This document shows, piece after piece, positions 13,607 through 60,100 of a stretch of 64,000 nucleotides of DNA. The notes beneath the pieces are model-generated. The model worked only from the letters and a program-made list of their open reading frames with translations. It was not told the DNA's origin and did no database searches. The DNA comes from Mesodorylaimus sp. YZB2_4. Taxonomy: Eukaryota > Nematoda > Enoplea > Dorylaimida > Dorylaimidae. A program made the translations under genes and the position numbers. Each line of letters starts with the position of its first letter. The first letter of the stretch is position 1. The stretch is taken from contig JASANH010001028.1 in NCBI GenBank assembly GCA_030248295.1, forward strand, positions 124,001-188,000, in the 5' to 3' direction.

Positions 13607-15905
13607 TCAAACATTCAATTCAGCCTTATTTTCACTAATCATACGCTGAAATGGTTTCAAAGCGGGCCACAACTCCTTCTCCAAGAATGTTTTTACCTGT
13701 TTCGGACACAAGCCTATCAACTGACGTCGATCCTTGTCCGCCAACATTGAGCGCAACTGGTCAGCTACAGGCTGAAAATATGCAGTGTATCCGAGTTGAT
13801 CAATGATGACAAATAAATCGATAGGCTCGTTTCTTTGACGAGTTTCGTGAGCTTGCATGGCCACTTTTTTGATTTTTTCGTGGGCTTCCTGAAAAGGAAT
13901 TCGATGATGTTCGTCCTCAGTCTCCTCGAACGTGAGTCGTGCAAGAAGGGCGTCTAAGGAAGCACGGCAGCGTAGCAGACACTCGCCATTGCTTTAGTAT
14001 GGACAGAGAAGCCTAAGGTTTAAAATCAAGCAAAATTACGTTTTTGTTTAAACTTTGAATTTGAAAAAAGCGGACAAATTACCATTAGTAACCAGTAAAA
14101 GCACGAAAAAGAATCGTTTTTTGAAAACCAATAAGTTTGGTCTCACCTGACGACTTTCTCCAGACTTGGTCAATTTCATGAGTATAGTTTCAAGTATCAA
14201 AAATGGCAGTTCCACATCAACGTTTTGCCGAATCTTGTCTTCCCGAACAACGATTCCATCAAATATATTTTGCAAAGTCGTCAAAATCACATCAGCACAT
14301 AGGAATGCTTCAGGAATGACAATTCGTCTAAATGAAATATCAATACGCCTCATGAAAAATTGCCCTTCTAGACTACAAATTGTGCCACTTTACGCTGACC
14401 CAGTGCGAATAGAATTTCACTCCAGGCAGATCAGCCCCTACGTTAGGTTTTTAGTTTGGAAAACATACAGAAATAAAACCCAGTCTTACCTGTTCGAAGA
14501 ATCATCCAACGTCCGTTCAAAACCCTGTACGGCCTCCGTTTGCAACGTATTCGGATATAAATTCATCAATTGCCTTGCCAAGCCGCAACAACGTTCGGCA
14601 CGCATGGGATTCCTCTTGTAAGGCATAGCGGACGAGCCTTCAGTAACTTTGGTTAACTCGTTATTCGGACTTTTTCTAATTTCTACAAGCTAAGACCCTT
14701 TAACTTACCAATTTGATTGGGTTCGAAGGGCTCAAATATTTCGCCTTGTTCTTGCAAAATACGCAAATCCATACTGATCTTACTCACGGCAGCGGCCAAC
14801 GCAGCGATTGGAGCAAGTACACAAACGTCCTGTTGACGAGTGTACGTCTGGCCCGTAATGATAAAGGCACCACCGGAATTGGCCGAAGAGAAACCCGCTT
14901 TCTCAGTCAGGATTTCATCCAATTTTTCGACCTGCAATGACACACTTGGTAAAAATAATGACCACTCGAAAAGAAAGAATTGATAAGAAACGAAAAAACT
15001 TACTTTTGACTCATCGCCGTCAAATAATTCAAGGAAACTAGCTTGTGTTCCAGTTGCTCCCTTAATACCACGGAAACGTAAATGATTTCGTTCGTACACC
15101 AACCGTTGAAAAGCCATGAGCAGATCTTGGGCCCAGATAGCACCCCGTTTCCCGACAGTAACCATAGTAGCGGCTCTAAAAAAAGCCAAAATCTCAGTCA
15201 TACAACTTTATTTCAGATATAAAAATCACTTACTGATAATGAGTTCTTCCAACCGTTGGTAAACACTTGTATTTTTCGCAAAATTTTCCAATACGATCGA
15301 GAACGGTGGCCAGTCTCCCCAATAAAAAGTCAAGAGCATCGCGAATAATAATGATATCCTGAAAGAAAAGATTTAACAGGCCGAATAAACATTTTTTACC
15401 ATGTTTAAACGGACAAAACCGAAATTCAAGCCAGCGTCGGACCGACTAACGATAAGCACTTACCGCATTATCCTGTATAAAAGCTGATGTTGCACCAGCA
15501 TGCAAAATTCCTGCTTTTTTAACCGCAGGACAACATTCTTCGAACGTCTTTACGTGCGACATAACATCATGTCTAGTTTCTTTTTCAGTTTTACGTTGAA
15601 ATGTCCAATCGATATTTTCTAGATTTGCTTGCAATTCGTCCAGGTGTTCTTGTTTGATAGGACCGAAACCAAGTTCCTGGAAAAAGCAGGAAATAACAGT
15701 CGTTTTGATAGTTCACATGCATACCGTCCTTCGAGCGTGAGATCAAAAATGAGGCGTACAAAAAGCCTACCTTCTCGCTTTCGGCCAACATCAGCCACAA
15801 TTTTCGCCATGTCACAATTTTATTTTTTTCAGAAAAAATTTTTAAGAAAGTTGGATTCGAGTAACGGCCAGAAAATACTGACTGATAAGTTTCAGTAGGA
15901 TCCAT
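13607..15905 (-). CDS. ADSL: Adenylosuccinate lyase, eight exons, complete
   Basis: Minus-strand exons are 15905-15771, 15676-15464, 15358-15234, 15175-15004, 14931-14709, 14637-14490, 14327-14147 and 13888-13607. All introns (58-162 bp) are GT-AG and the sum is 1479 nt, 492 residues, close to the animal enzyme (about 484). The enzyme acts twice in AMP synthesis, cleaving SAICAR and adenylosuccinate to release fumarate, as a cytosolic homotetramer. Visible marks are LHAGATS (His about 104), GRTHYQ (catalytic His about 156), [10 protein letters not shown] and the fumarate-lyase signature [11 protein letters not shown] (about 290-300), the flexible loop with the catalytic Ser. A short insertion (SSANSGG) precedes AFIITGQTY. 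No stop or frameshift is seen. The start codon follows a 282-bp gap from the upstream GPCR on the same strand. Assignment is very secure. Confidence 0.97.
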
Positions 15906-16187
15906 CTCTTTCTACGCGTTCCGTTGAAAAAAATAGGAGAAAAATAAGTATCCTAGACAAATTTTTTGTTTTTCGGTTTAGACGCGTTTTACGCGCCAAA
16001 TGCATACAGCCAAGTTAGTTTTGTCATAAGCAGTTAGTAGCCTTTAAAAGTAGCGCGGTAAATTTAAAATGACACTAGAGTTGTTGCTAGTCAAAGCAGT
16101 CGATCGCAAGAAAATCAGGTAAATTTAGTCCACATTATTTTTCAATAAATTCAACAACGTTTACGATGTCATGGTTCACAACACTGT

Positions 16188-19100
16188 TCATGATGACACC
16201 CAAGTATTCTGTCGTTTAGTACTAAAAATGCTTTTCAAAAGCTTTCTCAAATGAGTACGAAAATTGACACCGATTAAGCTGTATAAGAAAAAATTAACAG
16301 CGAAATTCGCATTGAACAAAATCATAGTGACTTTTTGAGCAGCAGTAATCCAACACTGCTGAGTGGATGTCAATTTTTCCCAAGTCTTAGTCCTATATAA
16401 ACCATAGATGATCATTCGGATCACGTGATCTGGGAAATTCATGAATAAAAAGAACAATGAGACTGTTAATAGGGTGAGTGTCATCTTCCGGTCATCCGTC
16501 AATCGTCGACGGACGTGGTAGCGCAGTTCGCCACCAAGGAATGTCTCACTGACCAAGGCTGGCAGGAGAAGACCTGTAATCATCCTCTCATCCGGCTTAG
16601 TTGATCTTCTTCGCTGGCGAATGCATTTTCGGAAAGAAGACGTTCCATCCACGAGTTGACTGGCTCGCCGAGAAAATAAATGAGTTCTGGCGATACAGGT
16701 GTTCCAGACAGTGATCAGTACAAGGGGTATGAAAAATGTAAGGACAGTATCGATATGGTTCATGGTATTAGCGATTTCCAAATATTTTTCGTGCACACTG
16801 CACATTGTTCTGTTGTTAGAGTCGACAGTCGGATAAGCTAAGACGAGGACATGCGCGTTGAAGAGGCAGGCGAATGCGAATATGGCCAGCACGATGCAGC
16901 GAGCACGTTTCACTGTACACCATTGGAGTCGTCGCAGGGGGTGACGCACGGCTATGTACCGTTCCAGTGTAAAGCTGACTACGTACCAGACTGATAAGAA
17001 ACTAAAGACCCCACCGAAATACAGCGTCAGTTGGCATATGCCAGGTATGTTTCTGGCTGAGTAGTCGAAGTTGGTTAGCAGCATAAGATGGCAAATGAGC
17101 ATGCCAGAGTCGGCGAAGGCCAATGCAGTCATGTAATAGCTGTTGGGGAGCTTTCTCAATTTGGTCAGCATGAAAGTAAGGGCTGATAGGCCGTTTCCTG
17201 AAATGGAGGGTAATGTGCCGTACTTCCTTTGTCAGTGAAGGTATTGAATAACAAATATCCAGTGTGGCCCTAGGGAAAATGTTGGATGGGCGCATACCTC
17301 GTTTATCACGACCTGGACTGGGTAGAAATTTTTTGGATTGACTTTAGGATTCAATGAGATTCACAGGCGAGTTTAGTGCCCAAACCAATATGACTGAATA
17401 CCATTGTTTTAGTGACAGCTTAGCAGAGTCAACTAGTGAATATTTTGTACTGTGCAACTCACTGTCAGTGCAGGTTGGCACCAATAAGGTGTTTCCTTCG
17501 GTGTATTCCTACGGACATATAATTTCAGTTGTAGAGAATGCATTCGAAAGAGGGGCATAAATTATTGAACCTCTCAACAGGATGTGATGATTGAAGCCGT
17601 TGGGGTGTCACATAGGTTTGATCTAGCAGCAGGTTTTATTGGTGCACCATATCCATAGTGCGATGATGAGGACAAAAATTCAAAAAAATTTCGAAAAACC
17701 ACGCTAGCCATAACGGAATGGAACTTATTCTGACCCTATTGAGTTATGCAGACATCGAGTATTGGTGCTGTTTAGAGCTAAGATTCACATTATTACTCCT
17801 AATTCGTCCGCTGATTATATGAGATGAGATATGTCACTAGCAGCTGGGTCTTCTCTTGCGTCGGGCATGCACCAGAAAGGAAACGGCGGTCGAGTGACCA
17901 CTCTTTCCTCTGCCAAAACAAAGTGATTCTGGCCGAGTTGACGCGAAGGAAAAGGAGGTTTCTGGAGATTCGTTGCTGAGAGTCGAGCTTTATGTCCAGT
18001 CTTTCATCACAACAACACGCATCTGACTCAAAAGTCAGTTTTAACCGATCTCAGACATTGATGAATTACTTTCCACGTATCTGCCTTCCTAGCCACCCTT
18101 TTTCAGTATCTCCACCTCCCGGACTGAACGCGATGCTTTTGCGGCTCCCCCACCCCCACCTCAACTTATGTACATCCGACCTCCTTATTAGTATTCCAGT
18201 AGCGAATTTTGAGTAATAGCTGCAGTAAAAGAAAACGAGCATCCGTTTTGAATTTCCCGCGTGTTGAAGTGAACATTTGCAACGGCTATAAAAATACGCG
18301 TAAATATTTTTCCTGCAGGAGACTTGTCGCATACTGTAGCGATTTTCTAATTCCATCTCATACTTTTCTCGGGGAAACGAACTTTTCGCATCCTCTTTTC
18401 GCTTGCTTCAAACCCAAGCAATAGGCCTTGCACCTTTCTCTTCCCACATTCCTTTCATCTATGCCTTCACCGCTGCTCTGTACGTGTTGGTGCTGAGATT
18501 AAAGCACTCATAGAACGGTGGTTCTGGTTCCTTTCTTGCATTATACCAGAAAACTCATCTATTATTACTTTCGGTAAGCTCCACATTGCGCCAGTTGTCC
18601 AGCAGCGGGCGCAATGTGGAGCTGTAGGACAACTGGCGCAATGCTGGCCGTGGACGTTGGCCTTTGTTGACCACGAAAGATGGCCATCTTTCGTGGTCAA
18701 CAAATGCCAGATGAAAAAGCAACATTAAACGCCCGTCTTCCTTGTTTTTTTCACGCGGCTACTTTCCGCCCTGAATCAATGTTTGACAACCTAGGCTGTA
18801 CTTGAGTATCAATCCGAGGGAAAGTCGAAGCTCTGCTGATTCGTCTTTTTGATTAATTTCTGTTTAGCAGAGGTGTTGGCACAGATTTTGTTGGAAATGC
18901 GTGTCCGTGGGGAGTGAGGCAGAGATTAAAATTGGCGACATATTTTGGCGGTAAGGTTCTTGCAAGGAACTCCTGCTTTTATTCCAAATCAACGAGGGCA
19001 CCGTCGCAAAAAACTGATGGGTCCACTTAATGGCCTCGCCTTTATGCCCTCTTACTGAAAACTTTACGCCAGGGCTCCTATCGGGTGGATGATAGATAGT

Positions 19101-21208: not shown

Positions 21209-21665
21209 AAGTGTTCGAATGACCTGGGTGTTTCACTGTCTGACCTGACCCTTGTTGTGACCATTGCCGCTTGGGGGCGCCTGGAATTCGTGGGGTGTGT
21301 CTCGAGTAGGTGGCGCATAAGGAGGAGCCGCACTTACAGGGAAGGGTAGGGCACTCGCAGGAGGAGCCGCCGCCGCACTCGGAAGCAGACAACAACCATA
21401 ACACCCTGACCTTGACCGGCCACGTAAAAAATGTTCTGACCTAACCCTTGACCCTGGCGAGGAATAGTAAATTTTCTGGCTCTGACTTTGACATTGATCG
21501 GACAAAAAATTTTGCTCATAAGTGGCACCAGTACATGCTTCTCTGTGTTTGCAATTTTTCAAAGAAATTTTACTACAGCTGACAATTATTTCCTAGCATT
21601 GCGTGAAATTTCACGTGCAGCCCAAGAAACTGAATTTTTATCAAGCTCAAAAAGATATGCAAAGC

Positions 21666-24328
21666 TGTCGCGAAGGTGTGTGCACGCGATTATACAAGCG
21701 TGCATTTCCAGCTGAAGTTGTGCCTATTTTGGACCCAACACCACATCGATGACTTGTCCATATTCACGGCTACAACTCTGCAAATGTCGTGAAATTATTC
21801 TACTGCGTCCACGACATTTTGGTAGCAGAGCGATTTTGGTCCCTCCCGTTCGTGTCGTCGATTTGTGCATTTCGATCGCTTATGGTGCGTTCAGCTTTTG
21901 GCCTTCACCGACGGCTCTCGGGCGGTGGCGGTTCGACTATTCTCGGCCTTCAACAAGGGCTTTCGAGCTTTGGTGTTGGCGGCGTGGATGGTCCTTCGGT
22001 CAGTCACTGGCGTTCGATCGATCTGTGGCGATCAAAGTCGACTCAAACTGACGTCAGAATCTGGGCGCAGGGTTAGTTCACGTCTCAATGGCTGCCATCA
22101 CCTTGAGCTATCCCAAAACCCAACGGCACTATTGCATTCGAACAATCGTTTGAGCACTCATCAGTGAGTTTATGGAATTCGATTCCACTAAACTTTATAT
22201 TCTCTGTGGTCGATGAAGAAAAAAGAGCAGTGTCATAAGGCAAGTTCAGGAAATCTGTAAACTTTTTTGTTTCAAAAATGATCGACGTCTCACATTTTTC
22301 TTTTAACTTCCCATTTATTGCTGCACGGTATGCTCATGTGCCCCGCATTTTAGTGCGCAACTGCGTTTCGCTGGGGAATAAATCAGATCAAATCAGGTGT
22401 ACTTTTGGGTGCACTTTGGCTGTAAACGCGGCCAGTCTCCACTCTCTGCTCACAGTGCTCATTCTGCAGGCGTCGTAAATGGCGGCTAGCGGAAGAGTCA
22501 GTGTTGAAGTCTGGAGTGGTCATGAGCCAGTCATGATAGTACAGTATAGTATTAGTGCTTGGTGTTGTGTGACATTTTGTAGGTTTATGAAAGTCATGTG
22601 ATGTAAACTTAACTTGTCATTGAATTTGTTATTTCATCCACTTTACACTATCCACTAAAGGTTGTGATTAAGGTGGGCGTAAGGGTATAAAGTGTATGAG
22701 CTATTATTCACTAGCGATCTCTCCAGTTGTGTGAGCTATTATTCACTAGCGATCTCTCCAAGACTAGCTTACTGTAAGTACAGCGCTGCCTTACACTTCA
22801 TAAAGCTTACTGTAGTTTAAATAATCAGAATTAGCTACGGGCTAGTTGGATTACTGTAACTTTACACTGACTGCAGTACACCCTCAATCGATATTATTGA
22901 TTACACACTAGTGTGCTTCGCATAGCTCACTCTAGTTCACAGAAGTTGCGTCAACTAGTCTTTGTGTTGGTAACTGTAACTTTACACTCATTACAGCGCA
23001 CTGTCTGTCCATGTACATATATTTACTAGGTTGCACTCTGTAGTCTGTGGTAATTTCAAGCTTTACACTAATGCACAAGTATTTTTTCTTCAATGTCAGA
23101 AGTGCATATAGAGGATACAAAGGATTGTACAAACACTGCACAACCGAAAGAAAAAATAAAAAACTTTTAGCGAATGCACATTTTAAAGAAAAAACCAAAA
23201 ATTGAAAACAGAATGCCGCAAGATCATATAACGATGCACAACAAAATTTAAGGGAGAAATAAAATATATAAAAAAAACAGTTCGTCAGTCCCTTAATGAT
23301 ATTGGGTCGTCAGAAAAAACAAAACATGAAAAGTTCCTTTAACAAAACAAACATCAGAACACAAAAAATGGTATTCCAAATTTTGCTAGTCACATAATTG
23401 GTTTGTAAAAAAAATTGCAAAAATCAACTCGGCAGTCCTTTGCTGATAAAAAATTTATAAAACCCTGTATCTGTCCTTTGACGATTTTAGGATTACTTTA
23501 CCTGCTCCAAGCCTACTGTAGGTGGTTTGTACATGACAGTAAACACTGCCTATGCATCTGCACCACAAAAGGTACTCGCTGAGGGGGGTACGCTATTACT
23601 ACTTAATCACATCTGCTTTTAAGATACCCGCACTGATAAGGAGGTCATTGTCTGGGCAAATTATCGTGTTAGTCGTGTTTTTTTAATGTGCCGCAGTCAT
23701 GTTTAGTGAAATTGAGTTGGAAGAAATTGAATTTGGAGTGTTAAGATTCGATGTTGGGTGAAATGAAGGTGGGCGTGAGGGTATAAAGTGTTGACGATAT
23801 GAGTTTGGAAAACGTGATCTGTTGGTTGGGCCAATTGAGTTTATTTACTGTGCATATTTGGGGCTGTCTGCTTGTTGAGAGGCGATTTAATTTTGTGGGG
23901 TTTTTGACATTGATGGGATTTGTTTAGGGGCACAGTTGACCTTTCCTGTTTCCTTTTTTAGCTGTGGGAGTGTGACGAAGGTGTGCACGGGATTATACCA
24001 GCGTGCATTTCCAGTTATTCAAGTGCTCATCTGCATGGTGTGGTTTCCAAGAGAGTTTGACCTTTCTTTTTTATCTACAGTAGTTCTATTTTGCACCGAG
24101 GCAAGGCAGGATAGTCTGGTTTGTTCTATGATAGGATGGCCTTTGTGAGTTCTCACCTTCACATACTATCTTGGGTTTGGTGCAGGACGCTTTTGCCCTT
24201 TGTATTCCTGGTGTGTAGCGTGAAGGAAAAGTAGTGCCTATTTTGGATCCAACACCACATCGACGACTTGTCCATATTCACGGCTTCAACTCTGCAAATG
24301 TCGTGAAACTTCCACTGCGTCCACGACA
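21666..24328 (+). mobile_element. Non-autonomous LTR retrotransposon nested in the hAT copy
   Basis: The left LTR (21666-21816) and right LTR (23971-24328) both start TGT(C/G)(G/A)CGAAGGTG and end GCGTCCACGACA. The element is flanked by the 5-bp duplication AAAGC (21661-21665 and 24329-24333). Removing it and one AAAGC rejoins the hAT sequence exactly as seen intact near 55.48 kb. The left LTR lacks about 200 bp present in the right one. TGGTAGCAGAGC just after the left LTR is a plausible primer-binding site. The 2.15-kb interior has no gag or pol, so it is non-autonomous. Confidence 0.88.
22698..22760 (+). repeat. Two-unit tandem duplication inside the LTR element
   Basis: A 28-bp unit beginning GAGCTATTATTCACTAGCGA starts at 22698 and again at 22733 (period 35). 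A neighbouring motif, GTGGGCG(T/G)(A/G)AGGGTATAAAGTG, also recurs near 23770. Confidence 0.85.
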
Positions 24329-24379
24329 AAAGCTGTTTTTGATGGCTTTGGGAAAACTAGACAAGCCGACATGAAAATC

Positions 24380-24700
24380 AAAAATAGATCTCATTCGTTA
24401 TAACATCAATTTCTGTTCCAACTGCCTGCCGCATAATCGATTTCTTTTCCCACCAATCGCAATGCTGGCTTCCGAGAAAATGCGCTCTAGCGGGCTGGAA
24501 GTGGCTGGTACAGCCGGAATATCTTGCTCCAATGAAGCCAAGTTTGGATATGAACAAATGGGACGAGAGAGTGGCTGCCACGGATGGATGGCATACGCAA
24601 GCAAGCACTGGGCTGGCACACAGGTCTATGGGCACACAGCTGGGGTGGTAGGTTGCTGGACGAGCAAGATAACTGCGATAGCACAAAACTCACAATCAGC
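24380..24700 (-). pseudogene. hAT transposase C-terminal dimerisation domain relic
   Basis: On the minus strand a frame around 24619-24398 reads LASLEQDIPAVPATSSPLER then IFSEASIAIGGKRNRL, the conserved C-terminal hAT block in which (V/I)PAT(S)xxxER(I/V)FS precedes a KRNRL basic run. Only this 3' part of the transposase remains and no upstream catalytic domain is recognisable. A diverged homologue lies on the plus strand at 55230-55410. Confidence 0.85.
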
Positions 24701-25425
24701 AGAGGCCAGTTTCACAGCGCCATCCTAATTTCAGGATGGGTACGAATTCAGGGCACTGCTTAGGACAGCAACTTTGGACAGCGCTGAGACACAAATCTAG
24801 GACGTGTCACAATAGCTGTCCTATAGAGGTGCCTTATCCGTAGATTTAGGCACGTCTTAGGACAGGTCACATCTTGTTTCACAATTAAAAAATATGAATC
24901 AAGAATTTTAGCAGACCACAAAATTCAACGCCGGAAATAAGCCGGGCACCCATTACTAATCAAAATTTGCTGTGCGATTTTATTTGAATAATCTTACTAT
25001 GACACGAGGACGCCTAGGCTAGTCCTCGGCAGGCTAGTCCACTTCATGCGAGCGCTATGAACTGTCGTTTTTCCAAGTCATAATTATGAGTCCTTCAAAC
25101 GGCGACTGTTTCGCTGAATTCCGTACCATGTGATTATGCTTGCTAGTACTTGATCTCGTGAGTGAGGTTTGATTAATTTTATGTGTCTCTCTCCCGTGTC
25201 AAGTGCATTCATTTGCTTGGGGAAGAAGTGAAATGATGATGATGGCATTCTGTTGTCCCTTTTTGACATCGACGGCTAAATAAGGACGACAGAACTTCAG
25301 TTCGGCTGAAAAAGAATCGGTTTTTGCGGGTCGAGAGAGCTTAGGCTAAGTGCAAAATCTCAAGACGCCCTAATATTGCCCTAGAAAGGTCACTGCCCTG
25401 GCAGCCTGGCGCAGAACAGATGTAG

Positions 25426-28548: not shown

Positions 28549-28759
28549 TCAGGCATGCATATTCCCAAATCGCGTGTCATGTTTTGCTCATGATGTCAGT
28601 AGCGCCCATCAGGATCTGTGGGTGGTTCTCTGAAAAGAGAGGAGTTATGCGCTCTTGCTGGTTCGATCACTCGGTTTTATTTTTCCTCGCTAGACGGTCG
28701 GCTCTCATTTTTTCGGCTGTTCCGTCACTACTTTATTTTGGTCGTCTCTGGACTCCAGA

Positions 28760-29296
28760 ATGTTTCGTGGCAAACGATATTCGGAGACCAATGCGCCTGC
28801 TGCTAAAGCCCAACTCAACGATTCTGTTCCAATTCTGCAAAAGCAGCATTTTGGAGGATCGTCCTCGTCGAAACCAGAACTTGAGTCGTTTCATACAAAA
28901 ATATTGGACCTGTACGCAAGCTGAATGAAGAGCGAGCATAATGTGAATGTCACGTTGAAAGATGCCCCGTCACAACCATCAGTTTGCGCCATGTTGAGCG
29001 GCCAAATCGATGCGATGGTGACCTCGAATCCTGGAAGTTAGCCATTGGTGATCAAGACGGTCTATTAAACTCCGAAGGCAAAACCAAAATCGGTTGAGGA
29101 AATCATGCAAGGTCGGGACACCTCCTATTTGGCGAACGACGATGGGACCTGGAAAGTGAAGCCTGATAGTAGCATATGGTACCATTGTTAAAATACGATG
29201 ACTTTGCGCTCGTTGCCTTTTATGCATTTGCTGGTGTATAATCCACGCAATATGGATTTCTTAGCCGTTGAGGTCATGCGCGCTCAGGATGCTTGA
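28760..29296 (+). pseudogene. Unrecognised ORF, 178 codons with four in-frame stops
   Basis: From the ATG at 28760 one frame can be followed to the TGA at 29294-29296, interrupted only by stops at 28922, 29039, 29066 and 29189. The translation is protein-like throughout (ETNAPAAKAQLNDSVPILQK, HNVNVTLKDAPSQPSVCAML, MHLLVYNPRNMDFLAVEVMR), and a further piece (MLDAYNTALEKMCSFLTDGT) follows one frame over. Nonsense changes without indels suggest a recent or slowly decaying gene. It lies just upstream of the Polinton-type polymerase on the same strand, so it could be another ORF of that element. The family is not recognised. Confidence 0.45.
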
Positions 29297-29973
29297 TGCT
29301 TACAATACTGCTCTGGAGAAAATGTGTTCTTTTTTGACTGATGGCACTGATCGTGATGAAGTAGACTGAATTTGCACGCGATGATTGAATTTCTCTCGCG
29401 AACTATGATTTGTTTACTATGACTATGGTCTGTTGTACCGTTAACTCTTACTTGATCACTATGATACCCAGCGCAGTTTTTCCATTTGAAATTAAATATT
29501 TTTTGGTTAGCTTCGCATTGTATTTTGATGCTGAGCTTCTTCCTGCATCATCCTGCTCTGGATATTCCTATCATCGAACCACTTCGTCGACAAATTGAAA
29601 TGACAGCCAAATCGATCGTCGACGCCATTTGCGCTGTTCTACAAAGCAAGATGGAATTGACCTTTGATAAAAAAATGACTGTATTTTACTCGAATCAAGC
29701 GCCTGAATGAAAGTGGTCATATGAAACGAAGGTACGTCACAAATATCGAGGATTTCTCGAGGAATAAGAAGGCTATCATACAAATAACCAATAATGACGA
29801 TTTATGCTGTGCCACTGTCGCGAAGTGCGCGATTGATACGAGGAAGCGGCGGCTCGCCTATTGCACGATGCCCGAAAATGGAACACTTTACTTCACTCGC
29901 GATCTGTAGTAAAGAATATTTGTAGCGGAAATTGAGCCCGTTTGCCACCAGAAAATAACTCGAATGTTACTTT

Positions 29974-30856
29974 CAGCGTTGCCAGATGCAAAATTGAAAA
30001 CTTGCTGTCAGGGACCTGAAAATCCGCTAAAAATCCGCTGTATATCTTAAAAACTCCGCTAAAAAATTCGCCAAAAGTTTATCGCAAAACTGAGTTACTT
30101 TAGCAAATAAAGCAGGGAATGCAGTAAATAACGGCGCATGAGGGAAAGCTTACTCACACATGCTCAAATGCTGCACCATCTACCACATATCACACACCAC
30201 AAATTTTTTTCAAAAATCAATTTGGCCGATCATTCTGATCACAATTATATAAAAATTATCGATTTCTGTCCAGTATATGTCGAGATATTTGAGTTTAAAA
30301 TCATCAAGTTTTCTTATAATCACCCTATATTTTAAGGATCGTTTATTCCAGGCTGGGGGGTCGAAGGTCAGGGGAGAGGGAAAAAAATTTCTATTTATAT
30401 CAAACAGGGGGACAGAAGAAAGGGGAACGACGTAATACTGGGAAACCGCCTTCGAGACCCACACTCGTGCCAAATTCTGGACTGTGGTTAGGCCTACTGC
30501 ATTACTGACTGAGCACTGAACTATAAATTTGTTGTCAAATACGGTCTTTTACTCCAAATCGTAGACCCATAGTCGAAATTATTGTGTTGCCTACCCCAGC
30601 CCTTGTCGACACTGACTCTTCAGACCTCAACGCACGGACAAAACTGTCTCAAAAGACGCAGAAAAATGGGCGAGCTGTTTAAAAAACCTTCCCGCATAGG
30701 CTACTCGAACATAGATTGGCACAAATCCGCTAGAATCCGCTGGAAACCCCAAAATTAGCTGCAAATTCCGCTAAAACACTCAATCCGAGGTTTTTCCCGC
30801 TGTCGGACAAAAAATCCGCCAGATCTAGTGGATTCTAGCTGCATCTGGCAACGCTG
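29974..30856. mobile_element. Non-autonomous hAT element with perfect 8-bp target duplication
   Basis: Terminal inverted repeats are CAGCGTTGCCAGATGCA (29974-29990) and its exact complement (30840-30856). The duplication GTTACTTT flanks both sides (29966-29973 and 30857-30864). AATCCGCT-type motifs cluster near both ends. The interior has no transposase. It lies inside the interval that separates two parts of the Polinton-type polymerase. Confidence 0.95.
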
Positions 30857-31126
30857 GTTACTTTTTTTTGCTGGCACAACCGGCACATTACGGCAACAGC
30901 ACAACCGGCAATGGAGTGTGAAAACCCCCCGCCTATCAACAGCCGCATTAGTTTGCTGTTTAGCCCAGCCACTCTGGAACTTATGCGCGGTAGGCTACAG
31001 TGACAGAGCATTACGTGCGAACCTTCTTTGTACGAAATTTGCGTCAGCTCAGGAGGGACCAGACGACAAATTTCTTTCATCTATTCTGAATTCCTAGCCC
31101 AAATGTAGGTGCGAAAAAGTATTATT

Positions 31127-31895
31127 ATTTCTAAAAAAATCTGTTATCAGACAACAAAAAGGTTAGCCCAGCCACCCTATTCTAACCAAATGCGAGGCAA
31201 ACGAGGTTGGCTGGGCACCCTCGGCGGCGTTTGTAGGAAAATTGTGATCAAATAGAATTGCTACTGTCACTAAAAAAGTGTAACAGGGCGTCCCCTACCT
31301 CAGCCACTTCATTCAGGGAATAGAGAGATGGAAACACAAGGGCCGATGGTCGTTCTAGTGCTGAAGGTTGTACGCCCAAAGCTATTAGCATGCTGGCTCC
31401 ACAGAAGCTGAATTTCCTGTTCTAGTGTCACTGAGTAGGTGCTACACATGCAGTCCTCGTGCTGTCACGGTAGATGCACCGTTAATGCAGCAAGTCCTCA
31501 CTGTTCCTCAAGTGAGTTCGAGGTAACAGAAGGGGATCGTATTCCAAAACTCCAAACTTCTGTACTTACTCCAAAATACGAATAAGTGTCATCATGTGGG
31601 TACTAGCCTTTGGTGAAAATCAGAATAAAATCCCGCTAGGAGTCGACCCCACGACTCCACGAGATACAGTACCAAGTACATCACAGAGACATACGTTGTG
31701 GGTGAGTGTGGAAAATGATTGTGAGCCTCGCCCTGAAGGCAACATAAAAGATATATCACGTCCACATAAGTATAACCCACTTAAGCATGTGCCGCCGAGG
31801 GAGCCCAGCCAACCCTGTTTGCCTCGCATTTGGTTATAGTAGGGTGGCTGGGCTAACCTTTTTGTTGTCTGATAACAGATTTTTTTAGAAATGTG
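31127..31895. mobile_element. Foldback/MITE-like element with about 100-bp inverted ends
   Basis: About 100 bp at each end are inverted copies: TTTCTAAAAAAATCTGTTAT, CAGACAACAAAAAGGTTAGC, CCAGCCACCC, ACCAAATGCGAGGCAAAC and GGTTGGCTGGGC appear at the left in this order and complemented at the right. The interior has no recognisable protein, and the target duplication is not clear. A solo arm of the same family is at 2257-2400. Confidence 0.88.
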
Positions 31896-33206
31896 ATTTA
31901 GTTTCGTTCATGCCAGGTGTGCGTTTTCTCTGTTGACCTGAACGGTCTGTTTATCTCGCTTCTCTTGATTCCTGTAAAGCACCAAACTCGAAGCATTGTC
32001 GCCTCTCTCCATATCTACATCTCGCGACAGCCAGAGCAATCGTTACGGCTAAAGCTCGCATAGATGATGATCGATATGAAGCTGTACGCAAAGGGGACAC
32101 TAATCGCTGCACCTTGCAGCGTACTCGGGCTCAAGTTCGATGACAACAGCTGGTTTACTAGATCATCGTGGTGGCTGTGGACCTGAGAAATGGTGGCTTT
32201 ACGAATAGCTCTCGGTCAACATCAATACCAAATTAAAAATTTTCGATAAGGACATGTTCGGTGGACTGGTCTATATTGGCCCTGAAGCCCCGAAAATACT
32301 TCATCTATGGTTAGTCGATGGGCATTTTAGTCGACTGCAACAAAGCATACAACAGAAAAATTGATCACCAGACCTGCCCTATACGCTGCCATTGCTGCTC
32401 TGAGTCGGGTAAATGCGCCGTTTCTCTGCCATTGAAGAAATGTCATCACTGCCAGCGATTTTTCAACAATCAACAGTGCTTCTTGAATCATTTGCAATTT
32501 GGCGCTGCGATCTTCAAGCAACTGCGGCGATGCTAAACGCGCAGGAGAGAATATTTCACTTAAAAGGGCCATCAGTGCGGTGTCATGTAATGTAAAACCT
32601 GCTAACATGATGTCGTCGGCGCCGATCGTCAATGTTTTATTCAACCGTACGAAAGGCCGCGAAGATGAGGATCCACTGGCCGACATGTCTCAATTTTCAG
32701 AGAGTGAGGAAACAGAGCACGATGAGAACGATGAGCCACTGCGGAAAAAGAGAAAGTATAGAAGAAAGGCCATGTTTCATTTCTTATGATTTTGAATGCC
32801 GTCAAGACGACCAGATTGGTGTAAACGAAAATGGTGATATCTGCACCGTCCGACTTTGGTGATTGCCCACAAGGTGTGCACTTTACATATGGGTGATTAC
32901 GATTATTTCTCATTACGTTTATTGACTTTCTATAGGTATGCGACCATTGCTGTAACCAGGGCACACTTGGTTACATGCGCGTAATGCAAGGAAAATCGTC
33001 GAGTCTTCGAACGCGAAAGATGTCTGGACACTTTTTGTCAGTGGCTTTTTTACAAACAGAACAAAGCGTCAGTTGCTATTGCGCACCACAACGCTAAAGG
33101 TTACGATGGTCAGTTCATTTTGGAATATTGTCATCGCATGGGACTCAAGCCGAAACAAATTATTTCGCGCGGGCTCGGGATCTTGTACTTGGAAGTTGGT
33201 GGCATC

Positions 33207-33303
33207 AAGTTCAAAGATAGTTGCTGAAGGCCACACTAACACACACATATTTAAATGTCTCTAAAAAAGTAAAAAGTTAAATATAAAAAAAGTTCAAAGA
33301 TAG
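33207..33303 (+). mobile_element. 69-bp insertion with 14-bp target duplication in the polymerase
   Basis: AAGTTCAAAGATAG occurs at 33207-33220 and again at 33290-33303. The 69 bp between end in an A-rich tract (GTTAAATATAAAAAA). The polymerase text resumes exactly after the second copy (IKFKDS then SLNFLPMALSALPK), so the insert interrupts the polymerase frame. A retroposed fragment or a slippage product are both possible. Confidence 0.8.
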
Positions 33304-35879
33304 CTTGAACTTTTTACCAATGGCGTTATCGGCATTACCAAAGGCATTTGACATCCCAGAATACAAGAAAGGTAGCTTAACAGATTTTTTTGTTTGATGT
33401 TAACCTGGCTTTCTATGTATTTCAGGATACTTCCATCACAGTTTCGCCCATCTGGAAAATTGGAATTACGTAGGAGAATGGTCAGCTCTCAAATATTATC
33501 AACCGGAATATATGAAAAGCGCTGAACGAAAAAATTACACAATTGGTAATCAGCAGCTGGGCAAAAAAATTCGATTTACAGAAAGAATTGAAAGAACATT
33601 TCGATAGCGACGTCGAAGTTTTGCAGCGGTGTTGTCTCAAGTTCCGTCAAACGTTCCTGGATAATGGGCAGATTGATATATTTGTGGAAAGTATCACTAT
33701 TGCCAGCGTCTGCAACAAATACTATCGTAAGCATCACCTGCCGTTGAATCGTTTTGCCGTGGTGCCGCATGGTGGCTATCGGAAAAAAGAAAAGCAGTCG
33801 ATCGTTGGGTTGAAATGGCTAAAGTTGCTATCCCATAGTACGCGCCAGCGAATCCAGCATACATTAAATGGCGGTGAAGCATATATTGGACAATGGCGAG
33901 TCGATGGACTCTGTGGCAATACGGCCTATGACTTTTATGGTTGCTACTGGTCATAAATTTTTTTCTCTTTATGCACCAGTCGATTGCCCTGCGTCAAAAT
34001 TTAGGCATGGGTGCAAAACATGCGTGAGCAAACTAAAACGCGTGAGTGCTGATGGCATATTGACAGCTTCTGAAGCTTATCAACGCACTGCGGATCGTAC
34101 GCGTGATTTGGAGTCATTAGGGTGAGATTTATGAGTTGAGCCAACGAAAATAACAGGGATCATTTTCAGTTATACAGTAATTGAAACGTGAGAATGTCAG
34201 TTACGCGATAACTTGAGGCAAAATCGAGAAATGGCAGAGTTTTTCAAAAACGTCGCTATAGCAGAACCACTAGATGCGAGGGATGCTTTTTATGGAAGCC
34301 GAACAAATGCAACTGTGTTTTTCTATCGCAAGGTAACGTACTGCCTCTGGTTTTCATTCCCCACAGCAACTGTTGGTGTTTCTTAAATTTTGCTTTCCTC
34401 TTAAGACAGCCGAGATTGAAAAGATTCGATACATTGACGTGCTCAGCCTGTATCCGTGCATCTGCAAATATAGCCGTTTTCCTGTCGGAAAAAAAAATTA
34501 TCGTATTTCCACTTTTTGCTGTACGTATGCGCACAGAATTATCAGCAAGATTCTTGTCACCATGCCGATGAAATGAGGGCTTTATCTGGTGAGTGGGTGA
34601 CTCTCGAGCTAAAAAAACGCTGGAGCTCGGGTATCAAATCATCGAGGTTTATGAGGTGAAAATAAGCTCTGTCTTTTATACCGTAGCTGTTGTTCGATCA
34701 TTCAAGAGTAAATCCCTTTCCTTCATAGGTTTGGCATTATGACGATGAGCAGTATGACAAAGTATTCAATCCTGAAGGTGGCCTTTTTGCGGCATACATC
34801 AACGATTTTCTAAAAATCAAGCAAGAAGCTGATGGATGGCCGGGTGGTGGGGACACAAGAAAAACGGCAATCATTTTTGAACGAATGGATGCAAAGAGAA
34901 GGAATCGCACTGCGACCAGAAAGGATGATGAAAAATCCAGAGTCGAGAACGTTGGTTAGCTTTTGCTATACTTCCTGATTACCTTTTAGTATGCAATCTG
35001 AACGAACTCTTAATTTTAGCTTCTGCGGAAAATTCGGGCAACAAAGCAAGCTGTCTAAATCTAAGTACTTCACGGAAGCAGCAGCCTTTTTTAAATTGGT
35101 ATTCGATCCTGCCATATGCACCAAGACAGTGCGCATTGCCAATGACAAAATGGTCAATGTTCCGTACGAGATCCAAGACAAAATTTGTGGAAGTTCTGGC
35201 TAAGACAAACACGGTCATCGCGGCATATACGACGGCCCAAGCTCGGTTAAAATTGAACAGTTACATTGAAAAACTGCAAGATCGAGCGCTCTGCTTTGAC
35301 ACGGACTCAATTATTTATCTCGATCGTCCCGTGACCAGCGGTTGGAAATTTCCTGGGTAACTTGTGCTTTTTCTGTATATATCCTACTTGGCTGCTTTTT
35401 TATGTGACCAATAATCCTTTCAGGTGAGATGACTGATGAATTTGAAAAAGATTATGGTGCAGGTAGTTGGATAACCGAGTTTGTTAGCGGCGGGCCGATG
35501 CATTACGCCTCTAAAGCGTGGAGCACAAGAGAAAAGAAAATAAAGATCAGTATCAAGGTGAAAGGATTGAAAATCACGAACGACATTGCTGCCGACATGA
35601 ATTTCTAAAATTTGCGCGACAAGGTTTTGGCGTTCGTCAACTAAAAAGACAGGCAAGAAACAGCCATTCGCATACAACGCATCGAACGGAATCAGCAACG
35701 CCAAGTCGTGACAGTGATAAGGAAGAAGGTCTATCGCGTCACATATGACAAGCGTGTAGTTCTTCCTGATTTTACGAGTGTGCCCTACGGCTATGCCCGC
35801 AGACAGTGACTGCCCCTTACTGGTTTTCATTTGTAGGTTTGTACGAAATGACTGTTGGTTTTTACAGTATTCACATATT

Positions 35880-36200
35880 CCTACTGGTGACAGCATATCT
35901 TAAAACATTGCACCCCAAAATGACTGTTCGGGCGCCACACGTATGCGTGGTGTGGTTTTCCTGGCTCGGGAAAGGGAGGGAGGAAAAAAGTAGGCGGAGT
36001 CGACTGTTTTGAAAACGGGGTGGCAGTCTGGGTCTACAATACATTGGCATATCTTGAAGCATTGCACCCCAAAGCGTCAGGGATAACAGGAGTATGTTTT
36101 GTACAGGTTTTTGTTCTGTACAGGAACGTGTCCCGTTCAGGGGTATCTTAAAGCATTGCCTGTACCCCATGTGTGCTCCCCAAAGTGCGAGGGATAACTA
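35880..36200. repeat. Three diverged copies of an ATCTTAAARCATTGCACCCC motif
   Basis: Related blocks start near 35896, 36050 and 36145 (ATCTTAAAACATTGCACCCC, ATCTTGAAGCATTGCACCCC, ATCTTAAAGCATTGC). The last two are followed by AGGGATAAC. They lie immediately 3' of the polymerase relic, and whether they belong to its end is unknown. Confidence 0.6.
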
Positions 36201-36499
36201 CTAGAATTCAATTGTCTTTTTAATTTTGTCTGATAACTGAGCAAGTTTTCTGGGTGAGAATAATACATGAGACAGCACGATGCTCGTCTTGTTTTGCCAG
36301 AACGTAACTTTGGCAGATCCTGTACTGTACAGCCCAATGAGCTTTCGATTAACATTAGAAAAAGGGCCGCTTCATCCACGCAAAACTGTAATGGCTTCCT
36401 TATAGCGAGAAGTTCAAATTTTGCATGGGCTAGCGAAATAGTCGAGGCTAACAGTAAACTCGGGTGTACATAGTGCGCGCTCATCGTCAGCTGGACAAT

Positions 36500-48958: not shown

Positions 48959-50049
48959 GCTCACTATACCTGGAATAAGACACCTGTAGGGCAGCTAATG
49001 TTACACGTACCTGCCCAAAAAATTTTGATGGGATTGTGAAACCGGCTGCCTGCTGATTGTGAGTCTTGTGCTATTGCAGTATCTTACTCGTCCAGCAACC
49101 TACCACCCTAGCGGCATAGACTACTGTGTGCTAGCGTATTGTGTGCTTGCATCGGCCGCGGCCATAAACAAATCCATGGCCGGTGTTCGACTACATTAAA
49201 GCGTGGTAGAGCTCCTTTTCTAGCAGGCCAGCATTGCGATAGTTACGAACGAATAAGCTGCACGAGTATTTTTGATTTTCAATGAGTGTGAGCTTTTTTT
49301 GGTTTTCTTAACTCCGTCGGAAACAGCTTTACATATCTTTTTGAGCTTGATAAAATTTCAACTTGCATGTGAAATTTTACATAATGCAACGCAGGAAACT
49401 GTCAGCTGCACTAAATTTTCTTGGTCAACAGGCGAACACAGAGAAGCTTTTTTGCTGGTGCCAATTGATCAATGTCAAAGTCAGAGGCAGAAAATTTACA
49501 GTTTCTCGCCAAGGTCAACTGTCAGCTTAGAAAATTTTTTGGTGCTGGTCAAGGTCAGGGTCAGGTCAGAAAATTTTTTCAAGGGTCGGTTAAAGTCAGG
49601 GGCAGGCCAGAAAATTTTTTGAGGGGTCGGTCAAGGTCAGGGTCAGGTCAGATAGTGAAAAACCCTGGTCATTGGAACACTAGCGCACGGAGGCGCGCAT
49701 TGCGCGACGAACGAACGAGTGAAAAGCTGTGACTGTATGCTGGACAAAAAGATGAATTATTCAGGTTTTAGACGAAGCTCCTCCACATATACTGTACTAG
49801 TGCCTAGCCGTCTCTTGATCCATCGCCGGAAGACGTGAATCGGGTCTTGTCTCAAGCAGGAAGCATTTTCGAGAGCTCTCCAGATGTACGATCTGAGGTA
49901 AGCAAATACTCGTAGTTCCATTGGAGCACGAAACCTAGGAGCAGTCAAACTTTTAGAAGGTTTGAAAGGCTTTTATTAGATTCATGCCTAATATAGATTA
50001 AAATTAGAAGCTTTACCAGACGGAAGGAGAAGACAACTGGAACCCGGGT

Positions 50050-54007: not shown

Positions 54008-55763
54008 TAGCGTTAGAAATGACCTCAAGGTCGAGGTCAGAATTCTGTCAAAACCCTGATTGACCAACCCTTGGTCAAAGTCAGGGTCCAGGTCAGAAAA
54101 TTTTTTGGGGTCCGCCCAAGGTCAGAGTCAGTCAGAAAGTTTCTTGAGGTCTCGGTCAAGGTCAGGGTCAGGCCAGAATTTCTCCCACCTGGTCAGAGTA
54201 TCCTGCCAGCGCAATATTGTAAATTCACTGAAACATTGGTGAGAAAATTTTCAAGCTCCCGCCTTCCTGTTTAGGGATCTGGGATTTTGGCACTTGAGGG
54301 CGTCTCGAGATTTTGGCATATTGCCTTATCTCTGTCGACCCTTATCTCTTTTACAAATACGGTTCTTTGTCAGCTGAACTAAACTTCTATCGTCCTTTTC
54401 TAGCCATTGAGGTCAAAAAAGACGACAGAATCCCATCATCATCATTTTACTCCTTACCCAAGCAAATACATGCACTTTACAGGACGGAGACACACAAAAT
54501 TAATCAAGGCTCATACCCGAGATCAAGTTACTGCCAAGCATGATCACATGGTACAGAGTCCCGCAAAAAAAGTCGCAGAAAACACAAAACTCTGTTTGTA
54601 GGACTCAAAATTATGACTTGGGAAAACCAAACGTTGTGGTTCAGAGAGTCGCCTACTAACATGACGGCTAAATTTTGTATATAGAACGGGGATTCCCAAA
54701 TAATAAAAGCCATGTTAAAGCTTATAAAATAAACCCAATTTGGCACGTTTACAGAGCTCATATAATGTGGACCAGCTTGCCTCAGCCAAGGCGTCGTCGT
54801 GACATAGTAAACTTATCAGATGCAATCGCATAGCAAACTTCGACTATTAATGGGTGCCCAGCTTACACGTACAGTGTGTATTTCCCGCGTTAAATTTTGT
54901 GGTCTACTAAAAAGTCTCGTCACCGTTTTTTAATGTGAAGCAAGACATGTCTTATAACCCGCCTAAATCTACGCTTTAAGGCACCTCTAGGACAGCCATT
55001 GTGACACGTCCTGAATTGGTGTCTCAGCGTTGTCCGAAAATGCTGTCCTAATCAGTGCCCTGAATTCATACCTGTCTTAAAATTAGGATTGCACTGTGAA
55101 ACTGGCCCCTGCTAATTGTGAGTCTTGTGCTATCGCAGTTATCTTACTCGCCCAGCAACCTACCAGCCCAGCTGTGTGCCCATAGACCTGTGTGCCAGCC
55201 TAGTGCTTCCTTGCGTATGCGATCCATCCGTGGCAGCCACTCTGTCTCCCCATTTGTTCGTATCCAAACTAGGCTGCATATTCTGGCTGTACCAGCCACT
55301 TGCAGCCTGGTGAGGCGCCTTTTCACGGAAGCCAGCATTGCGATTGATGGGAAAAGAAATCGATCATGAGGCAGGCAGTTGGGGCAGGAATTGATGTTAT
55401 AACGGATGAGATCTACTTTTGATTTTCATGTCGGCTTCTACAGTTTTCCAAAAGCCATCAAAAACAGCTTGACATATTTTTTCCAGCTTGTTAAATATTC
55501 AGTTTCTTGGGCTGCACGTGAAATTTCACGTAATGCCAGAAAATTGTCAGCTGTAGTAAAATTTCGTGGAAAAATTGCAAACACAGAGAAGCTTTGTTGC
55601 TGGTGCCGGTTAAGCAAAATTTTTTGTCCGATCACTGTCAAAGTCAGAGCCAGAAAATTTACAATCCCTCGCTGGTCAATGGTCAGGTCAGAAAGTTTTT
55701 TGAAGGGCCCGTCAAGGTCAGGGTCAGGTCAGACAGTGAAAAACCCAGGTCATTTGAACACTA
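54008..55763 (+). mobile_element. Complete hAT element with exact 8-bp target duplication
   Basis: The left end is TAGCGTTAGAAATGACCT. The right end AGGTCATTTGAACACTA is its near-complement, and GCAAACAC is duplicated at 54000-54007 and 55764-55771. Both subterminal regions carry GGTCAAGGTCAGGGTCAGGT-type repeats (54020-54190 and 55660-55735). Inside are a block shared with the copies at 25.0 and 47.7 kb, a MITE-like block (about 54880-55105, ending GTGAAACTGGCCCC), and a relic of the transposase C-terminus at 55230-55410 (ILAVPAT ... LFTEASIAIDGKRNR). It has no intact transposase, so it is a defective copy. Confidence 0.93.
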
Positions 55764-57515: not shown

Positions 57516-60100
57516 ATGGTTAAATCGGCGATTTCCGCAGGCGCTTCATTGTTAATCCCACATGCGAAAGAAGACCTGGATGACGAATTGTTGGATGAAG
57601 AGGGGGATGGTCACGAAAATATCGAGCATGACTGCGCAAACGAAGCAGCGTCTGCTCTCTCGAAAGCTGGTCTCAATATTAGCCAGTTTCTTCGATCTGG
57701 ACATGGCGAACTTGACGTAAGTTGAAATCTCGTTCCGAAAAGAATCAGAAATGAGGGTTTCAGCGATCTCCAGACGAGCTCGTTTTTTAAAAACAATCAG
57801 TCTTGGAAGGTGGGTCATTGTCAGCGGCCAACAGAACCATTTTTCAGCTCGAACATTCTTCCGATTTGAAAGCTGATGATGAAGTTTCGTCGTTGCAAAA
57901 AGGAATGGAACAGCTTTACAAGGTGCTGACTCGTAATCGAGAGAAACTAGAAATCGCCAATGATGTGATCTCGGCGGAAATAAGGTCCAATTTTAACGAC
58001 TATAAGGCCCATATGGAGGATATTACGCCCGAGTGAGTGGTTTCATTTTCTTCCCAATCCTACTGTAATTGCGTAGCACTCAAGACTTTTTGATGAACCG
58101 CAAGGTTTTATGACCGACTGTTTCAAGCAGGATAAATGGAAAAATAGTAACCCAGTTGAGAATTGAACCTATAGTCAGATTACGCCTGCGGTATGCTAAC
58201 ATTGCGACACCGTCAAGGCTCTTGTTTCCTGAGCAGTAGGGTAAGTTATTGTATTGGATTTTAGGACCCTTTTCTTTCAGGCTACTGAGATCCATCCTCA
58301 CATAGCTGTTTTTTTAAACTACGTATATCCTCAGATAAACTATTTTCTCGGACTTCTCCTGCGTCAAAAAAGGAAAACATATAGCCAGTGTCGTCAAGTC
58401 TCTGACCGCCATTTTTCACTTCTTTCCGAATGGCATCGACGTTCCAGCCCTTTCTTGTGTACTGTATACCAGCAATCTTTAGAATTTCCTTATATATTTT
58501 AGCCACGATGGTGGCGTTTTCAAGCGCGTTTTGAAGTCTGGTACTGGCGCTGCAGCTTCGTTCAGTAAAATCGTGAAATTCCACTATAGCAGTTATATCG
58601 AAGGGCAAGACGAACCATTTGACACTTCGCTCGCTCGCGGCTGCACGCAGAAAACAAAGTAAGAGTGACGATTTTCTTGGGTTTTGTACCTCAATAATCT
58701 GTTCCAAATTTTCGTCCCAGGAGGACTCCTTTGTTAATCCTGGCCGACGAGGCACTTATCTTTTCTATTTCCTTATAACGAACATGCTTACATGACTCAT
58801 GTATTCGAAGAAAGTGCATAAAACTATCATTCAAGACAGAAGCACTTGCATCTGGCTCGCGAGGAAGATTCATGCTTGCAACTTGTATCACATCAGTATG
58901 TGAAGCCCCTGGCTAGCAGTTGCGCCGTTCCCAGTTGCGCTTTTCCCGACTGCGCCATCACGCAGTTCCGCCGTTCTCACTTGCGCTGTGCTTCCAGGCT
59001 GGGTGAATCGTACGTGATAGCGGGCCTAGAATTGGGGCTGAGTACAATGAAGGAAGGCGAACTTGCAGATTTTGTCATTGATTACGGGTACGCTTACGGC
59101 GTTCACGGCAGCCCTCCAATGATTCCACCAATGTGCACTATTCGAATAGCTGTTCGTTTGGTCGAATGCATCGATGAAGATCCAGTGGATGCAATGAGCA
59201 TGGAAGAGCGTCAGGAACTGCAATATCTGGAGGTGTGTAAGAGGTGCAGTGTGGATTGCTTTTTTGTCAGTGAATTCAGAGTTCTTTGTTCCAGGCAGCC
59301 GCTTATATTCAGCGGAAATTGGAACAAGGCAAAACTCAATTCGGGCTTGGTAAATATAATGCGGCTATCAATCGATACAAAGATGGTCGATTGCAAGCTG
59401 AGATGAATATAAATAAATGGACCAAAGATGAAATCCAGGCCATCCGAGTGAGTCAAACCAGAAAGCTCCCTGAGTACATGCCCTTTTTTAAATATGACGA
59501 TTTCAGGACCTACGCATCCGTCTGTACAAGAATCTTGGCACATGCTACATGAAAATATCTATGCCTAGTAAAGTGTTGATTTACCTGAAAAAATTGGAGG
59601 AATTGGGCGTAGAAGATTCGAAAACTCATTTTTTGATGGCCAAAGTTTATCATATGCAAGGCATCTTCAAATGTTTCTTCACGAACTTTCAACCAATGTA
59701 TTCGTTGATCTTCACTTCAGGGGCCTATGAGAAGGCGTTGGACGAATTGCACTCAGCGCGCATTGAAGAGCCTGGGAGCGCGGATATTGCGAAGATGATT
59801 GCTGATGTGCAGAAGGAGAAGAACGAATATGAGGCGAAAAGCAAGGAGCAAGTAGGGTACTTGAAATTTTGTTGATTTTTTTGTATCCCTTATTCCTGTT
59901 TTCTGAGCTGGTTGATCTGCAGCGGCAGACTTCCCACTTTGGTTCAACTTATACTTGGTTTGTGTATTTGGCCAACAATCAAACAAAAAGCCTTTTGCAT
60001 GGAACTTTGTCATCCTCAAAATTAGCGCGCACTACCTCTCTATAACTAATCACTTTTTGTGTTTCAGGCGAAGCTAATGTTTTGCAAGAAAGCCATGTAA
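57516..60100 (+). CDS. FKBP6/Shutdown-like FKBP-TPR co-chaperone, eight exons
   Basis: Exons are 57516-57716, 57848-58032, 58503-58658, 58998-59232, 59295-59447, 59507-59660, 59721-59851 and 60068-60100. Phases match throughout and the sum is 1248 nt, 415 residues. An acidic N-terminal region comes first, then one FKBP domain (about 130-236) built from VFKRVLKSGTG, KFHYSSYIEG, EPFDTS, AGLELGL, YAYG and GSPPMIPP, then TPR-like helices (about 260-400). A single FKBP plus TPR is the architecture of FKBP6 and Drosophila Shutdown, which work with Hsp90 in piRNA loading. The active-site Trp of true isomerases is Leu here (GLELGL), as in inactive members. The intron at 59661-59720 is GC-AG and 60 bp long. 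An in-frame TAG at 57507 lies upstream of the ATG. Subfamily assignment is good but was not checked by search. Confidence 0.88.
58140..58226 (-). repeat. tRNA-like SINE remnant in FKBP6-like intron 2
   Basis: On the minus strand GGTGTCGCAATGTTAGCATA (A-box-like) is followed by GGTTCAATTCTCAA (B-box-like), but no acceptor stem can be paired. It is therefore a SINE head or a pseudo-tRNA rather than a working tRNA gene. Confidence 0.55.

Follow-up and report, generated by a model that had tools for sequence, protein, structure and literature searches.

Spliceosomal-type introns shared by copies of a Polinton-like DNA polymerase gene in the genome of a dorylaimid nematode

Can the polymerase of a mobile DNA element carry spliceosomal introns as an ordinary part of its gene, or do such introns mark a gene that the host has taken over? 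This question is raised by a broken DNA polymerase B (PolB) gene in a 64,000-nucleotide stretch of the genome of the nematode Mesodorylaimus sp. YZB2_4 (GenBank assembly GCA_030248295.1, contig JASANH010001028.1, positions 124,001 to 188,000 of the forward strand), hereafter the window, which lies on contig C40 of a 145-Mb assembly of 1067 contigs. A sequence-only reading of the window had described a Polinton-type polymerase interrupted by five or six short GT-AG segments and had suggested a domesticated polymerase that later died. Judged from the DNA of the window and of its relatives in the same genome, the segments are spliceosomal-type introns of a mobile family. We consider it highly probable that the window holds a dead copy of a Polinton-like DNA transposon family, in which the polymerase introns are a normal, inherited part of the element.

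The body of the gene occupies 32.0-35.8 kb of the window, with an N-terminal remnant at 29.5 kb. The Exo III exon (33516-33953, plus strand) matched Pfam DNA_pol_B_2 (PF03175) with an E value of 1.4e-5 and 24.6 bits, just missing the curated cut-off of 25.8. A second match to the same family, at 34337-34573 (E 0.0041, also below the cut-off), covers the exon of polymerase motif A (DVLSLYP; 34406-34489, plus strand), and the remaining 8 of the 10 window pieces searched against Pfam gave no PolB match. The homologous exons of other copies matched DNA_pol_B_2 above the cut-off (best E 5.3e-16), and in a PHROGs search the PolB exons matched DNA-polymerase entries only (best E 4.5e-11). What we take, by eye, to be the exonuclease motifs and then polymerase motifs A, B and C follow one another in the right order over 32.78-35.33 kb. 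The polymerase assignment of the sequence-only reading is thus upheld by two exon pieces of the window and by the stronger matches of its relatives.

Seven intron positions, A to G, interrupt the gene on the plus strand, and six of them (A to E and G) retain GT...AG in the window copy. These are A (32874-32935, 62 nt, phase 0, GTGTGC...CTATAG), B (33372-33425, 54 nt, phase 1, GTAGCT...TTTCAG), C (34122-34169, 48 nt, phase 2, GTGAGA...TTTCAG), D (34333-34405, 73 nt, phase 0, GTAACG...CTTAAG), E (34656-34728, 73 nt, phase 0, GTGAAA...TCATAG) and G (35357-35423, 67 nt, GTAACT...TTTCAG). Intron F (34975-35019, 45 nt, phase 2) has lost its GT here and keeps the acceptor TTTTAG. The earlier count of five or six was therefore low, and its example segment, 33371-33425, is intron B with the start placed at 33371 instead of 33372; its observation that removal of the segments rejoins coding text held. 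Three further readings were discarded: a placement of intron F at 34955-34989, since the copies place it at 34975-35019; a suspected frame problem at intron G, which was not borne out; and a loss of coding text from Exo I to Exo II, where the window seems 40 nt too short and a shorter intron A (62 versus 99 nt) accounts for nearly all of the difference. A host gene in the window (13610-15911, minus strand), weakly identified as adenylosuccinate lyase (Pfam ADSL_C, E 0.0052, below the cut-off), is interrupted by three introns of the GT-AG type, which by eye measure about 58, 72 and about 105 nt.

With a 146-aa exon as the query, we found 57 matching pieces in the genome at E <= 0.001, the window itself included, of which 45 were at 55-70% identity. 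We fetched 20 stretches with copies and compared them piece by piece with the window. They fell into five subfamilies: subfamily 1 (SF1; L013, L015, L018, L021 and L022; DNA identity 95-97%), SF2 (L023, L024, L026 and L027; mostly 90-93%, with some upstream pieces at 80-84%), SF3 (L009, L011, L012 and L025; 87-99%), SF4 (L010, L014, L016, L017, L019 and L020; 90-95% within the gene) and a fifth with L028 as its single member. Within-subfamily DNA identity was mostly 87-98% overall. Parts of the gene are missing from the fetched stretches of L010, L014, L018, L019, L020, L026 and L028, and those of L009, L011 and L012 start inside the gene, near contig ends. A tree built from a 114-residue stretch matched the subfamilies in outline, with 3 of its 24 inner branches fully supported; it paired the window with C338 (support 87/85), which sits on a long branch and whose placement was flagged by the tool.

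The same intron positions were present in all 20 fetched copies wherever both flanks were readable, save for one absence of intron B. Such sharing is what the sequence-only reading had said would favour an intron-bearing lineage. For introns A to F, junctions were counted in 88 of the 120 possible intron-copy pairs, the remainder having no readable flank; loosely anchored rows (3 of 88 donors and 4 of 88 acceptors) and the absent intron B of L026 were left out. GT stood at the predicted base in 79 out of 85 and AG in 79 out of 84 testable junctions of the other copies, compared with background rates of 0.055 and 0.060. Intron F, damaged in the window, had GT in 11 out of 11 and AG in 13 out of 13 testable junctions. 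Intron G, counted by hand, had GT in 12 and AG in 10 of 13 copies. For every one of introns A to F, at least four of the five subfamilies include a copy with GT...AG, copies within one subfamily not being independent. The A to F introns were 52-154 nt long (median 64), except for one 31-nt row (L021, intron E) with a loose flank, and their lengths modulo 3 (38, 23 and 25 out of 86) showed no tie to multiples of three.

Introns and exons have diverged in different ways. Between subfamilies (421 pairs), intron identity was 0.483, against 0.454 for shuffled sequence and 0.669 for the 60-nt exon flanks; within subfamilies (111 pairs), the values were 0.891 for introns and 0.934 for exon flanks. 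Exon dN between subfamilies was 0.10-0.33, with silent sites saturated. Within subfamilies, dN/dS was at least about 0.5 in four out of six pairs, about 0.3 for L019-L010 and about 0.1 for L012-L025, all from one exon, 11 rows and at most 141 codons. Taken together, these values show purifying selection on the exon during the element's life, with many copies drifting after insertion. Shared positions, GT and AG borders, and introns near the shuffled level next to alignable, selected exons indicate genuine introns carried by a mobile family. They also support, by inference, the earlier suggestion that the gene was once transcribed by the host. Transcription of the element would take place in the host nucleus, where the host spliceosome would process the polymerase mRNA. 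Replication would proceed as DNA by protein priming, followed by re-insertion; introns would be copied along because such an element moves as DNA.

The polymerase gene is tied to a transposon, Polinton-like in its features, by a common sharp terminus. In SF1 copies, the point at which homology is lost varies by no more than one base, ...GGGATAACTACT(A), and this terminus sits in three different flanks: that of L022, that of L021 and one shared by L013 and L015. In the window, this end lies at 36204 and closes a terminal region (35850-36204, plus strand; sharp end ...GGGATAACTACTA) whose 355 bases have 51 genome matches, the window included; the exact end motif (36191-36202) occurs once in the window. 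No left element end was found within the 64-kb window. On contig C311 (32.4-51.2 kb), two facing ends lie 18.7 kb apart with PolB adjoining one of them, as read from match coordinates. A 194-nt SF1 terminal piece recurs without PolB alongside in eight places at 86-92% identity. On C268, the terminus, a match to the rve integrase (INT) domain and PolB follow in order at 111.8, 118.0 and 125.6 kb, and an rve match of the same kind lies about 6.2 kb from the terminus in C268, C851, C682 and C1059, among the 150 of 526 rve candidates that were scored. The rve genes adjoining PolB in C162 and C667 were rejected as element genes, being long terminal repeat (LTR)-like by eye from their open reading frame (ORF) text. 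Many rve matches are found roughly 700 bases from a contig end (for example C76:675, C78:717, C128:718 and C435:61835), within open frames that reach 2944 aa; it looks as though a single LTR-like element with a long ORF interrupts or terminates these contigs.

Could a single polymerase instead have been domesticated, gained its introns as a host gene and died later? Introns of host type and size, and exons that have been under purifying selection, suit such a history. Against it, we found dozens of dispersed copies in closely similar subfamilies (87-98%) with a sharp common terminus, where a single retained locus under selection without mobile neighbours would be expected; most within-subfamily dN/dS values are those of dead insertions, and none of the 20 fetched copies was a candidate for a kept host gene. 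We regard domestication as very improbable: what the sequence-only reading observed was real, and an intron-bearing mobile family, of which the window copy is one decayed member, explains it better than a dead domesticated gene. Even less credence, close to none, can be given to random insertions and deletions in a decaying gene. The window does contain two true insertions (33221-33303 and 29813-32029) along with several frame breaks, and PMC8097293 cautions that gene prediction calls indels in decayed Mavericks introns (this and the other papers named by PMC number are cited from their available parts). However, the segments recur in the other copies; they keep the same positions in five subfamilies, conserve GT and AG well above background, and fall into all three modulo-3 length classes. 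A host multigene family made of tandem and segmental duplicates would account for the finding that Polinton marker genes were not seen together in the same copy, for a 5-kb tandem duplicate on C757 and for the common flank of L013 and L015. Yet SF1 homology ends within one base in three flanks, eight terminal pieces lack PolB, ends face each other in C311, and four contigs have the same kind of INT at a distance of about 6.2 kb from the terminus, which leaves the multigene explanation improbable.

A Polinton-like transposon has a more serious competitor in another kind of mobile element with a protein-primed PolB (pPolB), such as a linear-plasmid-like element, a capsid-less one or an endogenous virus lineage. 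We consider this possible, although rather unlikely. Several results favour it or otherwise weigh against our interpretation. Genome-wide, there were nine matches to the Ulp1-type protease (PF02902) and two to the packaging ATPase (PF04665), none near a PolB copy, although divergent protease forms would escape such a search. Two scans of viral contigs (IMG/VR) and one phage scan revealed no outside relative, and the N-terminal domain has no Pfam identification. The rve integrase probably belongs to the element, the link being one of coordinates; the C268 contig runs out within PolB, which leaves its element cut, and none of the copies was seen in full with both ends. GT or AG is gone from a few junctions, as expected of dead copies. 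On the other side, the 18.7-kb span of C311, the termini and the C268 rve match on the arm opposite PolB fit Polintons. A Polinton-like family with inherited introns remains our preferred interpretation.

Within this Polinton-like family, the intron set is not constant. Two introns are specific to SF2. Intron H, after the 'SD' of Exo III, begins with GTAA in L023, L024, L026 and L054, is altered in L057 and gave no row for L027; intron I, within motif C between T and D, has GT in L023, L024, L027 and L054. Both are missing from the readable rows of the other subfamilies, the window included, and H is also missing from L028 and from a sister family. The simplest reading is that H was gained in SF2, since L028 groups with SF2 (support 93/89) and yet lacks H. 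Conversely, intron B is precisely absent in L026 (C163), and intron E is apparently precisely absent in L060 (C476), where the text is broken just 3' of the site. The sister family (C470, C544, C255 and C460; 92-100% alike and 32-34% identical to the window copy) is open through the B, C, D and H positions. In the two copies read, it has intron E at the same place and three introns not seen in the window's family: one within Exo II, one shortly ahead of the D region and one inside motif A. The query's residues 1-66 are matched in five places by alignments that end there, coordinates that hint at a third PolB kind with a break at the B position as well; against this, C607, C325, C714, C493 and C855 match through in one stretch. 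A further nine PolB matches are confined to the C-terminal half of PF03175, five of them (C773:14307, C216:63361, C397:3457, C713:8304 and C604:26385) in open frames of 913-1114 aa; from these long frames, an intron-poor PolB kind seems to be present in the same genome. At C757:8354-14075, two PolB copies lie 5.1 kb apart in the same orientation, through tandem duplication or an assembly effect.

The SF2 extras, the C163 and C476 absences and the different set of the sister family indicate that introns have been gained and lost during the element's life, as far as sequence comparison can tell. The precise single-copy absences suggest rare reverse-transcribed templates or exact deletions. A bolder reading, somewhat less likely than not, is a lineage of DNA transposons or endogenous viruses in which the replicative polymerase has repeatedly gained and lost spliceosomal introns. 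Under that reading, DNA elements that copy themselves would offer a natural experiment on how introns are gained, and splicing might let the host restrict the element to certain tissues or stages. Many copies within a single genome, differing at exact codons in the presence, absence or addition of introns, would make both gain and loss directly datable. Reliance on introns for its polymerase would also make a self-replicating element dependent on nuclear splicing, in contrast to a virus able to express its genes outside the nucleus.

The rest of the window copy shows how far it has decayed. Upstream of the gene lies a partial, broken remnant (28694-29262, plus strand) of a stretch that precedes the polymerase in other copies. 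By blastn, 28943-29262 matched L021, 29024-29262 matched L022 and 29018-29492 matched L025 (84%), and the ORF text at 28694-28921 resembles, by eye, the ORF L022:75-578, which SF1 copies repeatedly show some 1 kb ahead of the N-terminal region of the polymerase. The first part of that N-terminal region (29529-29812, plus strand) shows 77% DNA identity to L010 and 67-68% to SF1 copies. Its protein match runs from 29528 to 29770 and corresponds to residues 154-234 of the L023 ORF; for the first 153 or so residues of the related N-terminal stretch of 567 aa, the window gave no match. The second part (32030-32786, plus strand), cysteine-rich and reaching up to Exo I, was recognized by protein matches and by 77% DNA identity to L010 over 32030-32328. 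Between the two lies a later insertion of 2.2 kb (29813-32029, no strand assigned), not an intron, across which the L010 alignment is continuous. By eye, it has short inverted ends (CTGTCGCGA) and a 3-bp duplication, and it contains an inverted pair, 31127-31228/31791-31892 (95%).

The Exo I exon (DFE; 32746-32841) is 56-66% identical to L013, L015, L021 and L022, and the Exo II exon (32985-33220) is 64-82% identical to the copies. Exo II is followed by an 83-nt insert (33221-33303), again not an intron; it looks retroposed, with an A-rich tail and a 14-bp flanking duplication, and is missing from L010 and L022. Between 34489 and 34561, about 120 nt of coding text are missing relative to L013, L015, L021 and L022. 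The motif C exon (DTDS; 35202-35354) is 62-90% identical to the copies, and the last, broken exon region (35426-35806) has a first stretch of 60 residues that is 60-86% identical in 13 of the 20 copies. All of these features are on the plus strand, and the gene has several frame breaks.

Elsewhere in the window, a dispersed repeat occurs in both orientations (21403-21668, 49467-49681, 54985-55762 and 24330-24826; up to 295 nt at 89%) and includes a GGTCAAGGTCAGGGTCAGGTCAGAAAATTTTTT-like tandem part. Two rhodopsin-type receptor genes are single open frames (1-870, plus strand, and 16191-17231, minus strand; 7tm_1 E 1.1e-7 and 4.1e-27, respectively). Pieces of an FKBP and TPR gene lie at 58822-59872 on the plus strand (FKBP_C E 2.7e-9; TPR below the cut-off), and an Integrase_H2C2 piece at 4796-5212 on the plus strand (E 2.6e-15) probably belongs to an LTR-type element.

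Many EMALEs and protist viruses encode PolB-type replication genes. Like the family described here, such virophage-type elements (EMALEs, PMC8547959; endogenous protist viruses, PMC10120064) are integrated and virus-like; unlike it, their genes are intronless, all EMALE genes being reported without introns and the protist viruses having been annotated with a prokaryotic gene finder for that reason. Surveys of integrated viruses that use intron-blind gene finders, as the PMC10120064 pipeline does, may miss intron-bearing lineages or file them as fragments. Cryptophyte and other protist Polinton-like viruses (PLVs) are related integrated elements in which introns are possible. Those introns are group I and self-splicing, occur in some protist PLVs, measure 309-376 bp and lie in another gene (PMC12220804), whereas here the introns are short, of the GT-AG type and in PolB. 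In a dinoflagellate PLV, gaps were judged not to be introns, GT-AG sites being lacking (PMC12721341).

Polintons/Mavericks share with the present family a PF03175-type PolB, terminal ends, a span of about 18.7 kb (one copy here) and, probably, by coordinates, a retrovirus-type INT. Vertebrate Polintons/Mavericks are stated to be without introns, as a generality and not as a definition, and insertions in their decayed copies show up as introns in gene prediction (PMC8097293); the polymerase here has seven or more. Polinton pPolBs are organized as TP-vOTU-Exo-Pol and can carry homing-endonuclease insertions (PMC11071308). In the present family, a region of about 560 aa precedes the exonuclease and contains, by eye, a candidate Cys motif (DDLC.ARA) and His motif (SHF.V) for the vOTU pair; the region gave no meaningful Pfam or PDB sequence match. 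A PDB search with one exon found no match, and one with three profiles (A1-A3) returned only unrelated or chance-level entries, such as T-cell receptor chains, probably since one A1 row reads through an intron. The literature covered gave no account of a Polinton polymerase with spliceosomal introns; the original Polinton descriptions, Repbase and most subscription journals lie outside that coverage, and an earlier description is possible. Retroelements with introns, of the Penelope-like kind, were reportedly described by Arkhipova et al. in 2003. Those intron-keeping retroelements are mobile and have host-type introns, as here, but the mover in the present family is taken to be a DNA element, for which intron retention is mechanistically easier.

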